Shown in pieces: positions 38,138 to 42,446 of a stretch of DNA of 42,446 bases (positions are counted from its first letter, which is position 1; the number at the start of each line of letters is the position of its first letter). The stretch is from NCBI GenBank assembly GCA_025057955.1, contig JANXER010000010.1, positions 1 to 42,446 of the forward strand, read 5' to 3'. The stretch is from Candidatus Methanomethylicaceae archaeon. Its GTDB lineage: Archaea; Thermoproteota; Methanomethylicia; Methanomethylicales; Methanomethylicaceae. Made by a program: the position numbers and the translations under genes. A model generated the notes under the pieces. The model was not told the DNA's origin. It saw nothing but the letters and a program-made list of their open reading frames with translations, and did no database searches.

Positions 38138-38935
38138 ATGATCTATCCACTAGATTTGTGTAGATGGGTAAAGTTTCCAAATAGAGAGTTAATTGAAGTG
38201 TTATTAGTTCAAAGGGATGAGACGCAGAGTGTTAATTTTCCAAAAATTTGCGAAGTTTTGAAAAAATTTAATATAAAAGTAATTTTGCAAATAAGCTATT
38301 ACATGAATAATTTACCACACATATTGTGCTTTTTAGATATAACAGATTTAAATTTACCCTTTGAAAATGTAATTAAGGAATTTGAGAAAGAGAATTTGAG
38401 AATTATTGAAATAGCAAAGCCAAAGAGAAAGGGAATAATAATTGATACAATATCATTTCCATTAATGGCTGGAAGATCTAGAGTAATAATATTCAGAGAT
38501 TTTGCATATTCAAATATAATAAAAGGATTGAGAGAGAGGTTTGGCTCAGGCGGAGAAGTTTTATTGTATTACATAGGTCTTGAATGTGGAAGAGGTTTTG
38601 GTAAGCTTCATAAGGAATTTGCTCAAGACGTTGAAATAGAAGATCCAGCTGAAATATATAGAGAAATAAGTTGTGCTTTCTTTCAATGGGCAGGGTTCGG
38701 AAGGATTGCTGATGTGGAAATTACGGAGGAAGGTGGATCAATAACTTTACATGATAGCTTTGAATGTGAAATCATGAGAAATAAGCTCAGAAAATCCTAT
38801 AGTCAACTTGTTAGAGGAATGATTACTGGAATACTAAATGAAGTATTTAATAAAGAATTCGATGTTATTGAGGAGAGATGTTTAGCTAAAGGGGATCCTT
38901 TCTGTAGATTTAAAATATCTTCTAGATATCGTTAA
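38138..38935 (+). CDS. V4R (4-vinyl reductase) domain protein
   Basis: The product has 265 residues. The first 95 or so residues form an alpha/beta, ACT-like region with no recognised family. The C-terminal V4R domain spans about 110-262, with GLRERFGSGGEVLLYYIGLECGR-type entry residues (about 130-152), ITLHDSFECEIM, and the hallmark EERCLAKGDPFCRFKI. V4R domains bind small hydrophobic ligands or contribute metal ligands in sensors; the ligand here is unknown. ATG at 38138 follows tRNA-Gly by 54 bases. Its last 54 bases overlap the convergent bioY gene, which is long for a tail-to-tail overlap. Confidence 0.8.
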   Translation: MIYPLDLCRWVKFPNRELIEVLLVQRDETQSVNFPKICEVLKKFNIKVILQISYYMNNLPHILCFLDITDLNLPFENVIKEFEKENLRIIEIAKPKRKGIIIDTISFPLMAGRSRVIIFRDFAYSNIIKGLRERFGSGGEVLLYYIGLECGRGFGKLHKEFAQDVEIEDPAEIYREISCAFFQWAGFGRIADVEITEEGGSITLHDSFECEIMRNKLRKSYSQLVRGMITGILNEVFNKEFDVIEERCLAKGDPFCRFKISSRYR

Positions 38936-39379
38936 TGCTAATATAGCCTTTAATAAATCCCATGGAATAAAAGGTAGAACGCCAATTAGAAAAGCTTGAT
39001 GAAAACCAATCCAATAGGATAGCCAAAGCCATCCAAGCCCAAATATTATGGTCATACAAAGAAATACTGATGGTACATCTCTCTTTAAAAGACCAGAAAA
39101 TGATCCAAGAAAAAATCCCAATATATAACCACCAGTGGGCCCTAATAGAGCCGCGTATGCTGATTTTCCCATAGCGAAAACTGGTAAGCCTATTAATCCC
39201 ATTAGTATGTATATTCCTTGGCTAATAAAGGCATATTTTCTGAGCAAAAGCACAGAGAGATAAACGAAAAAAGTTTGAAGCGTAAAGGGAACATTAAAAA
39301 TCGGTATGGATATCCATGCGCCTATTGCTGTAAGAGAGGCAAATATAGCGGAAACAGCAATAATCCTTGATGAGAACAT
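38882..39379 (-). CDS. bioY: BioY biotin transporter substrate-binding subunit
   Basis: The 165-residue membrane protein has five or six transmembrane segments. The family markers are visible: ISIPIFNVPFTLQTFFVYLSVLLL and GLIGLPVFA, then LLGPTGGYILGFFLGS. BioY is the S component of ECF-type biotin uptake and can also act alone. The start ATG at 39379 lies about 26 bases from the TATA element inside a BirA-like operator, so the mRNA is likely leaderless and biotin-controlled. The ECF module genes are not in the window. Confidence 0.93.
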   Translation of the reverse strand: MFSSRIIAVSAIFASLTAIGAWISIPIFNVPFTLQTFFVYLSVLLLRKYAFISQGIYILMGLIGLPVFAMGKSAYAALLGPTGGYILGFFLGSFSGLLKRDVPSVFLCMTIIFGLGWLWLSYWIGFHQAFLIGVLPFIPWDLLKAILALTISRRYFKSTERIPFS

Positions 39380-39385
39380 AGTATT

Positions 39386-39428
39386 TTTAATTGTTAACCA
39401 CTATATAAAAATTTGGTTAACAATTAAA
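39386..39428 (-). promoter_or_regulatory. BirA-like biotin operator enclosing the bioY TATA box
   Basis: A perfect inverted repeat has 14-bp arms (39386-39399 and 39415-39428) separated by 15 bases. Its core is TTGTTAACC-N15-GGTTAACAA, the known BirA biotin-repressor operator form. The spacer holds, on the minus strand, TTTTATATA, a TATA box about 26 bases before the bioY start. A bound dimer would mask the TATA box. The right arm overlaps the stop codon of the upstream surface-protein gene. No birA gene is visible in the window. Confidence 0.85.
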
Positions 39429-40206
39429 TTGCATATATATCTAGTTTTATCTGATCAGCTCTAAAGTCAAATTGCTGCTGCTCAAAAGCATAAACCCTAA
39501 TCCTTGACTCCCCTGAGCTTATATATCTTGAATCTATTAGAGTTACTGCAATAGTCTCAGGAATGTTTGGAGTTGCAATGTAGGATCGAATTAAAGCCCA
39601 TGAAGATGTAGAATAATCCCATAGATAAAATGTTGCATTTACGGATCTAGTGAAAATACATGTTACATTATATGTCATATTTATAATAAGACCTACACTA
39701 ATATTAGTAAAGGTGAAGTATGCATCCAATTCATATTTTACTATTGCTGTTGGTGAGAAAAGTATGTAATCATTCATCATATAAAACTGATTTCCCATCC
39801 TAGTAGCCGTAACTCTAACTTTCCAATTTCCTGAAGAATCTCTAAAATCCTCTGCTCTATGAGATGTATTCTGTGAAAATGATTGATATGAGAAGGGCGG
39901 CCCTGATGAATAGCTTACATAACCAAAGCCTGACGTCTGATAAGCTCCTGCAGTATAATTGTATAATTGTATAGTAACATTAACTGAGGGAAGACTGAAG
40001 GCTTGTGTTGAACGCCATAATAGTGAAGGCCACGAAAGTATATCACTAGTTCCATAGAACTCCACTGCTACCGAATGTATATTGATCCTTGGTATAAAGT
40101 TAAGCATGTTCAATCCAAAGTTTAATGTTGGATTATTGCTCAATATTAGTATAGATAATCGCCAACCTCCCGTGGAGTTTCTAAAGCTATTTGCTCCTGA
40201 AGTTAT
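39424..40206 (-). CDS. Surface protein repeat region downstream of an in-frame stop
   Basis: The frame is open from directly after the TAA at 40207-40209 to 39424, in the same frame as the large gene upstream; as a separate gene it could begin at TTG 40143 (239 residues). The first residues, ITSGANSFRNSTGGWRLSI, are the natural continuation of the upstream repeat. A second copy of the same repeat follows (VEFYGTSD..W ... TIQLYNYTAGAY ... DFRDSSGNWKVRV). It is rich in Tyr, Ser, Asn and sequons, and has no signal peptide or anchor. I read it as the C-terminal part of one interrupted protein rather than an independent gene. Confidence 0.65.
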   Translation of the reverse strand: MTSGANSFRNSTGGWRLSILILSNNPTLNFGLNMLNFIPRINIHSVAVEFYGTSDILSWPSLLWRSTQAFSLPSVNVTIQLYNYTAGAYQTSGFGYVSYSSGPPFSYQSFSQNTSHRAEDFRDSSGNWKVRVTATRMGNQFYMMNDYILFSPTAIVKYELDAYFTFTNISVGLIINMTYNVTCIFTRSVNATFYLWDYSTSSWALIRSYIATPNIPETIAVTLIDSRYISSGESRIRVYAFEQQQFDFRADQIKLDIYAI

Positions 40207-42446
40207 TTAAAACTCCCTAAGCAACTCGCTAGTATTAGTATAAGTGAAGTTGAAATAGCCCATCTCACCATAGTTTGGATATCTTCCCAATTCAAAATTG
40301 TAAACTCTTATCGTGCAATTTGCTGGTACATGAGAGACATTTGAAACCATTCTTATCCATATGGAGTTCCAATCCTCTGTATCAGAAATTCCTGAGAACT
40401 CAACATTTAGAACTGTTGGATATGAGATGAAGGCAATGCCAACATCATCTATTCTAGCAGTAATTAGAAACATATCCATTGGATTTAAACATCCTATATC
40501 GAAGACAATTTTAAGACTATAGTTAGTGCTAGGCGATAGTGTAACAGGTATGCCATTTCTAAAGAAGTATCCAACTGTTGTACCCATCCAACCGCTGCCA
40601 GCATTATTATCATTATATAGCACTGATATGTCATTACCTAAAGCATCAGCCAATATAAGTCTCACTGAGTACAAGACCACATTGCTATAGTTTCCATAGT
40701 TGTATAAACCGCTTGGTCCCAGTTCAAATCTCCAAGCAAAGCTAGCCAAAGCTCCACCCCATGAGCTTGGAGAGGAGAAATTAGTAAAGAAGGTTACATT
40801 CAATCTATGGAAGGAATGATCGAAATGTCTATCATCAATTAATATACAGAATGATCCTCCACCACTTCCACCTGGGTTTCCATTTCTTGAATCGTAAAAT
40901 GGACCATCTATCTTTATAAAACCTGTTGGAAATATGGCACCATATAAAATATGATTAGTTCCATTCAAAAATATTAAATCCACTGATGAAGCTAAGGGTC
41001 TGTATACTGAGTTTGGAAGAGTATAGTTACCACTATATAGTGGAATTTCTGATGACCATGTTCCATCGTAATATCTATAGGCTAAGCCAGTGGATATTTG
41101 ATATACTATGAAGATTCTTTCTGCTATAAAAGTTAAAGTTGGATATCTCATATTTGTGGGAGATGGTATATTCACCAAAGTATTATTGGATGTAAAATAA
41201 TAAACATATGAATACATGTTGGTAGAATTTACAAATGTAAATATTACGCGATTATTATAAGGATCTGGAGCTGAGGAAAGCTCTGCCATGCTTGCTCCAG
41301 AGCCAATGGTAAAATTGCCATGGCCATACCAATTTCCAGGCTCTGGATTCCATCCATATATTCTCGTATATTGAAGACTATCCCCCCTTATAAATATAGT
41401 ATATATGGCATTAGTATTGGGTTGTAGTGACATGGAAACTCTCGTCTCAAGAGTGATGGATTCTCTATACAAATCATTGGGTGAAGTGCTTGATCCCTCA
41501 TAGTTATACCAATTGCTCCTAATTGAAGGATCTGCATTGGGAATACATCTAATAAATTGTATTCTTAATCTATTCGCCCCCGAGGGAGCTTGATAATACC
41601 AAGCTACAGCTGGCCTCTCATCCTTTGAAGAATAAGTGCGAAATGCAAAGTCCCAAGTTGGTTGAGGAGTCCAAGTTGAGCCTCCATTATTGCTTATAAG
41701 AGCTGATCCATTTGCATATGGATTTGCTGTAGAATAGTAAAACATCCAACTATTTGAAGCTGTGCTATACCTAGAGTACACTACTATCCAATATACTTCG
41801 GAAACATTGAGATAAGCAGGGGTGTTAAAAATACAATCATACCATCGCACTGTGGTTATTACACTAGACTCTATTCTTCCAGAAGTAATAATGCCAGTTG
41901 AAGACATATCAGGAAGTGAACCATTGCTCCTTCTAATCTCTATGTAAAGATGATCAGTAGGCGCAGTTACACCTATGGTAAACAAGAAGAGCATCACTCC
42001 ACTTAATACGTTTGAAGAAGGTCTGAAGGATTGAGCTGCAAAATAATTGCCATAGACGTTATAGTATGTTGTTGTGGAATTGTTGCTTTGATCTAATGAA
42101 GTGAGATATGGATATAGAGCTATAGCTGGTCTATTAAGTGTTACTCCAGTAACACTATGTAATGTAACTCTAGCACCAGCAGTCCAGCCAAACCATCCTG
42201 GAATTCTAAAGCAAAAATGAACATTTGGGGATATTGACCAAGCAGTTGTATATGCCCATCCTCCAAGGCTTCCAACATAGGAGCTATTAACATAAGCCCA
42301 AGAAAATGTTCCATTGGTGCGAAGAAGAAGAGCATAATGATATCCTTTTTTAAGTTCAGCATTTATATTTACGCTCACCCATGAGAATGTGCTTGGAACG
42401 CTTGTTAATACCGCTGAGGCTACGAGTCCAACTGGACTCAAGTCAG
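40207..42446 (-). CDS. Large repeat-containing extracellular protein, 5' end outside window
   Basis: At least 745 residues, Ser/Thr/Asn/Tyr-rich, with many N-glycosylation sequons. The visible start is inside a domain. Next comes a block beginning AAQSFRPSSNVLSGVMLFLF and ending with WDFAFRTYS, which looks like a choice-of-anchor/jelly-roll type module; the end of an earlier copy precedes it (YALLLRTNGTFSWAYV ... VHFCFRI). A propeller-like middle (MRYPTLTFIAERIFIVYQ) and a C-terminal repeat follow. The frame ends at TAA 40207-40209 inside that repeat. It is probably secreted or cell-surface, but the signal peptide would lie beyond the window. No function can be named. Confidence 0.7.
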   Translation of the reverse strand, partial: DLSPVGLVASAVLTSVPSTFSWVSVNINAELKKGYHYALLLRTNGTFSWAYVNSSYVGSLGGWAYTTAWSISPNVHFCFRIPGWFGWTAGARVTLHSVTGVTLNRPAIALYPYLTSLDQSNNSTTTYYNVYGNYFAAQSFRPSSNVLSGVMLFLFTIGVTAPTDHLYIEIRRSNGSLPDMSSTGIITSGRIESSVITTVRWYDCIFNTPAYLNVSEVYWIVVYSRYSTASNSWMFYYSTANPYANGSALISNNGGSTWTPQPTWDFAFRTYSSKDERPAVAWYYQAPSGANRLRIQFIRCIPNADPSIRSNWYNYEGSSTSPNDLYRESITLETRVSMSLQPNTNAIYTIFIRGDSLQYTRIYGWNPEPGNWYGHGNFTIGSGASMAELSSAPDPYNNRVIFTFVNSTNMYSYVYYFTSNNTLVNIPSPTNMRYPTLTFIAERIFIVYQISTGLAYRYYDGTWSSEIPLYSGNYTLPNSVYRPLASSVDLIFLNGTNHILYGAIFPTGFIKIDGPFYDSRNGNPGGSGGGSFCILIDDRHFDHSFHRLNVTFFTNFSSPSSWGGALASFAWRFELGPSGLYNYGNYSNVVLYSVRLILADALGNDISVLYNDNNAGSGWMGTTVGYFFRNGIPVTLSPSTNYSLKIVFDIGCLNPMDMFLITARIDDVGIAFISYPTVLNVEFSGISDTEDWNSIWIRMVSNVSHVPANCTIRVYNFELGRYPNYGEMGYFNFTYTNTSELLREF

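Follow-up and report, generated by a model that had tools for sequence, protein, structure and literature searches.

A predicted BirA operator enclosing the TATA box of bioY in a Candidatus Methanomethylicaceae archaeon

The window analysed here, the whole stretch of 42,446 nucleotides from contig JANXER010000010.1 of a Candidatus Methanomethylicaceae archaeon (assembly GCA_025057955.1), carries a long inverted repeat at 39386-39428, next to the biotin transport gene bioY. The locus raises the question whether this repeat is an operator of the biotin ligase/repressor BirA and, if so, how such an operator would be combined with an archaeal promoter. A first-pass annotation, made from the letters of the window, had proposed that a BirA-type operator encloses the TATA box of bioY. 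The features concerned are, in window coordinates:

38882..39379, minus strand: bioY, biotin-uptake S-component, 165 aa (Pfam PF02632 BioY, E 7.3e-31, 107 bits, cut-off 25)
39386..39399, minus strand: downstream half-site in the bioY direction, conserved in 16 genomes of the family and without mismatch to the reverse complement of 39415-39428
39400..39414, minus strand: spacer between the arms, AAATTTTTATATAGT on the bioY strand, holding the core promoter
39402..39409, minus strand: TATA box TTTATATA, 8/8 match to TTTAWATA
39410..39415, minus strand: BRE-like A-run CAAATT directly upstream of the TATA box, with a putative function suggested by its position
39415..39428, minus strand: upstream half-site TTTAATTGTTAACC in the bioY direction, reverse complement of 39386-39399, containing TAA at 39424-39426

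The arms had been described as perfect over 14 bp, and they are: TTTAATTGTTAACC at 39386-39399 and GGTTAACAATTAAA at 39415-39428 are exact reverse complements, separated by a 15-bp spacer. The core was said to have the BirA-type form, and an exact TTGTTAACC-N15-GGTTAACAA is found at 39391-39423; the window has just this one copy, and 100 dinucleotide-shuffled versions of it have none. Perfect arms of at least 14 bp with a spacer of 3-40 bp are present at a single place in the window. A first-order Markov simulation yields 0.03 such arm pairs per window, with 5 of 200 simulated windows containing any. Taken alone, the repeat is unusual, yet not beyond chance; the chance question is settled by the conservation of the palindrome across genomes described below. 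The annotated overlap of an arm with the stop codon of the upstream gene is also real, the TAA of a minus-strand ORF lying inside the upstream half-site.

The TATA box lies entirely within the spacer, as had been claimed. In the bioY direction the order is upstream half-site, BRE-like CAAATT (adjoining the half-site with a one-base overlap), TATA box, downstream half-site and the ATG at 39379. The TATA-to-ATG distance is 22 nt, and 21 or 22 nt is also found in the nearest relatives (G001, G007, G011); the choice of the bioY start codon is less certain in other genera. Because the centre of an archaeal TATA box lies about 26/27 bp before the transcription start (PMC4158304), transcription of bioY is predicted to start at or next to the ATG, giving a leaderless mRNA. 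The downstream half-site is thereby positioned between the TATA box and the predicted start. TBP is encoded in the genome. The nearest named bioY locus is from a Nitrososphaeria archaeon, with 42% identity.

The genome was searched for a biotin ligase with an N-terminal winged HTH, as the first-pass annotation had suggested, and its single biotin protein ligase (317 aa, L001:1249-2202) is of this type, with the domain make-up of a Group II enzyme. The protein carries HTH_11 (PF08279, 55.8 bits, cut-off 25), BPL_LplA_LipB (PF03099, 78.8 bits) and BPL_C (PF02237, 44.5 bits) domains, each above its Pfam cut-off. It scores 231.9 bits against TIGR00121 (cut-off 83.1) and 51.4 bits against the NCBIfam model birA_repr_reg, TIGR00122, which is below the curated cut-off of 70. 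The alignment to the E. coli and S. aureus BirA proteins of known structure covers residues 10-316. A genome with only an HTH-less ligase had been named as counter-evidence; since the ligase carries HTH_11, that is not the situation here. A second ligase-like match (L002) was rejected as a biotin ligase, being a lipoyl ligase (PF21948).

Other genes suggest how biotin is obtained and used. The genes for a biotin carboxylase, a carboxyltransferase and a carrier protein bearing an ETMKM biotinylation motif form a cluster, and an EcfT-like transporter component is encoded elsewhere in the genome. No BioB was found above cut-off in the genome, the weak matches lying far below it. A search for further operator copies, also suggested earlier, left the bioY site as the only one: in the 1.21-Mb, approximately 94% complete genome neither a search at N15 allowing up to 3 mismatches nor the pattern GTWAACYN{14,16}RGTTWAC revealed a second operator. 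BirA control of birA itself or of the carboxylase cluster was consequently not found, although at this completeness a gene or site may have been missed. Taken together, these genes picture an organism that probably imports the biotin it uses, and bioY is its sole detected BirA target.

Relatives of bioY were sought in 61 genomes and found in 21. In the family, bioY occurs in 16 genomes of 7 genera, and each of them has a BirA-type palindrome upstream of the gene, in agreement with the earlier suggestion that the adjacent transporter is the logical target. It is also present upstream of bioY in one genome each of the same order (G022), the same class (G028) and the same phylum (G056). In these 19 archaeal genomes the predicted operator fits 9-bp half-sites near TTGTWAACC with N14-16 and sits upstream of bioY (PF02632), the spacers being 14, 15 or 16 bp long. 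In 15 of the 16 family genomes the best TATA-like 8-mer starts 5 bp in from the upstream half-site (spacer offset 5), irrespective of spacer length; it is the distance from the TATA box to the downstream half-site that changes, by 0-2 bp. Summed over the family, the TATA score is 112 of 128, a value reached in none of 5000 spacer shuffles, the best of which gave 102. Genus g2 has weaker TATA-like 8-mers (6/8). The enclosure of the TATA box by the operator was thus found throughout this family but not in G022, G028 and G056, which have a BirA-type operator without a good TATA at offset 5; in G056 a TATA-like sequence follows shortly after the operator. Because the operators of these three genomes enclose no clear TATA, enclosure is not needed for regulation as such, and it appears to be a feature of the family rather than a rule for all archaea.

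The operator was found only alongside an HTH-bearing BirA in the genomes where BirA was found. Seventeen bioY genomes have both the operator and a readable HTH-BirA. In G022 the operator is present and birA is cut by the contig end inside the HTH, and in the 87% complete genome G015 the operator is present and no BirA was found. Conversely, the bioY-bearing archaea G041, G057 and L026/G061 lack the operator, and no HTH-BirA was detected in them. G003 has an HTH-BirA, and neither bioY nor an operator was found in it. The birA gene adjoins or lies near bioY in G022, G028 and G056.

The recognition helix of BirA and the operator also vary together. In the alignment of archaeal winged HTH domains, a helix starting with SRV or SRT goes with the upstream half-site GTTAAC, and the SRA of genus g2 goes with GTAAAC. 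At the bioY loci of the Clostridial outgroup, SRA is found with TTGTAAACC, SRT with TTGTTAACC or TTGTCAACC, and SRN with GTCAAC. Over the BirA winged HTH domains of L083-L102 and L120-L133 from archaea and Clostridia, 31 of 31 genomes show agreement between the residue after SR (Ala versus Thr/Val/Asn) and base 5 in the upstream half-site. An A at this base is present in 13 of 13 SRA genomes and in 0 of 18 others (Fisher p 5e-9, a value that overstates the evidence because the genomes are related and were counted without correction for kinship). Independent switches of helix and operator were few, with at least one in each of archaea and Clostridia. Another helix residue (H/F/W versus S) distinguishes the archaeal groups as well, though not those of bacteria. 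The downstream half-site is GTTAAC in two g2 genomes, and in Clostridia it is GTCAAC irrespective of the helix, probably because it doubles as the -35 box TTGACA; these cases limit the base-5 rule to the upstream half.

In view of the above, with the observed operator site, promoter geometry, HTH-bearing BirA, conservation and co-variation as its basis, we consider it highly probable that the palindrome is the operator of the bifunctional ligase/repressor BirA, which would repress bioY at high biotin by hiding its core promoter. By analogy with known BirA proteins, BirA would bind as a biotinyl-AMP-loaded dimer and repress when biotin is high. When biotin is plentiful and the carrier proteins of the carboxylase are already biotinylated, BirA-biotinyl-AMP would accumulate and dimerise, and the dimer would place one winged-helix domain on each half-site. 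Since the half-sites flank the BRE and TATA elements, the bound dimer would keep TBP/TFB and RNA polymerase away from the core promoter, leaving bioY untranscribed. When biotin is scarce, BirA would remain in ligase mode, leaving the site free and bioY expressed. From the geometry we infer exclusion of TBP/TFB, and it may well be TBP specifically that is blocked, as the first-pass annotation had it; since the predicted start is separated from the TATA box by the downstream half-site, blocking of TFB or of RNA polymerase would give the same result.

The main alternative accepts BirA as the repressor. TBP and TFB could still bind while the dimer blocks recruitment of RNA polymerase through the downstream half-site. 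Its position before the predicted start is compatible with this, TrmB, MDR1 and Phr have been described as hindering polymerase recruitment (PMC4158304), and the TATA-like sequence of G056 lies downstream of the operator and is not enclosed. However, within the family the distance from the upstream half-site to the TATA box is fixed and the distance on the downstream side varies, which points to overlap with BRE/TATA as the feature that is kept. We regard a block of polymerase alone as possible but rather unlikely. Binding of the palindrome by a regulator unrelated to BirA is quite improbable. The score of the HTH domain below the birA_repr_reg cut-off would allow it; the fit of the core to the BirA consensus family, the tracking of HTH-BirA by operator presence, the position of birA next to bioY in three genomes and the tracking of the BirA recognition helix by base 5 all argue against it. 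The inverted repeat could also be seen as an RNA hairpin that serves the upstream gene as 3' end or terminator, or bioY as a leader element, in line with the overlap of an arm with the stop codon of the co-directional upstream ORF. Yet the TATA box in the spacer puts the predicted start at the ATG and hence the repeat outside the bioY mRNA, the would-be loop holds a TATA box at a fixed offset, and the repeat persists next to other upstream genes, such as the divergent birA of G056; promoter geometry and conservation led us to reject this very improbable explanation. A chance palindrome, conceivable in a window of 34% G+C given the simulated frequency of such arms, is refuted by the recurrence of BirA-consensus letters at the same place in 16 genomes of 7 genera, and its probability is practically nil.

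Predicted BirA operators in archaea are already known: PMC545781 cites Rodionov, Mironov and Gelfand 2002 (Genome Res 12:1507) for a consensus TTGTAAACC-[N14/15]-GGTTTACAA, and the title of that paper, as cited there, presents the BirA signal as conserved in archaea. As far as the quoted consensus allows a comparison, the sites described here share the consensus family, bioY as target and occurrence together with the DNA-binding domain of BirA, and differ in the half-site TTGTTAACC, in spacers of up to 16 and in the TATA box at a fixed offset in the spacer. The present analysis adds a layout in which the operator encloses the TATA box, the conservation of this layout, and the co-variation between helix and operator. 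In the 2002 study, as its abstract reportedly puts it, BirA sites go together with an N-terminal DNA-binding domain in BirA, and bioY is said to be a regulon member. A description of a TATA-enclosing BirA operator was not found in the literature searched, which covered the 2002 paper through its title and quoted consensus.

Experimental work on a bacterial counterpart is available for Bacillus subtilis, where BirA binds the operators bioO, yhfU and yuiG only with biotin and ATP, and where the primer for a bioO half-site contains TTGTTAACC (PMC4016012). The two systems share an HTH-bearing ligase and this half-site. The B. subtilis promoter is bacterial, however, and biotin synthesis genes are repressed as well, whereas only bioY was found here. 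Clostridial bioY operators (L028-L051) likewise consist of a palindrome upstream of bioY in genomes with an HTH-BirA. Their downstream half-site is usually GGTTGACAA, which contains the -35 hexamer TTGACA, so that the promoter element lies in an operator arm in Clostridia but in the spacer in the archaeal family. Archaeal repressors that act at BRE/TATA are known, for example the Pyrococcus TrmB at malE, and they too use a palindrome at these elements, hindering assembly of the pre-initiation complex (PMC4158304). They differ in belonging to another protein family, in responding to sugar ligands and in having shorter spacers.

These comparisons lead to a more general proposal, which we hold to be somewhat favoured. 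In this family BirA operator and archaeal core promoter would be fused, the spacing from the upstream half-site to BRE/TATA being constant and the dimer enclosing both promoter elements, and Clostridia would embed the -35 hexamer in a half-site; in both, Ala versus Thr/Val in the helix would set A versus T at base 5, a code that spans two domains and has changed jointly at least once within the family. BirA is among the few regulators whose operator can be recognised in bacteria and archaea alike. With the TATA box inside the operator, one protein-DNA pair appears fitted to the archaeal promoter, and the comparison with Clostridia suggests how a single operator can be fitted to two promoter systems that are unrelated. 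The co-variation offers a simple, testable recognition rule that would allow BirA regulons to be predicted in uncultured genomes.

Some further observations concern other sites and the neighbouring genes. Operator-like matches in G042, G051 and G058, which have HTH-BirA and no bioY, showed no clear excess over a reversed-pattern control; for this reason, and because two of them lie upstream of a ribosomal protein L3-like gene, they were left out as biotin sites. In L080 and L081 (family f12), from genomes that carry HTH-BirA and in which bioY was not found, a GTTAAC palindrome with a 14-bp spacer is located at about 1501-1528, just upstream of a ribosomal protein L3-like gene. L020 (G028) has a second palindrome, GGTAAAC...GTTTACC, upstream of its BirA-type site; it encloses a TATA-like sequence, and its half-sites are oriented opposite to the BirA consensus. 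Upstream of bioY in the window, the two ORFs 40207-42441 and 39424-40143, both on the minus strand, share a reading frame with a single TAA at 40207-40209 between them, and the matching region of the relative G001 (L005) has no stop and a glutamine at the TAA position. The stop either breaks up a gene that appears to encode a large protein of secreted or surface-like type, or reflects a wrong base in the assembly. At the other end, bioY and a V4R-domain gene on the plus strand (38138-38935) overlap convergently at their 3' ends by 54 bp (38882-38935).
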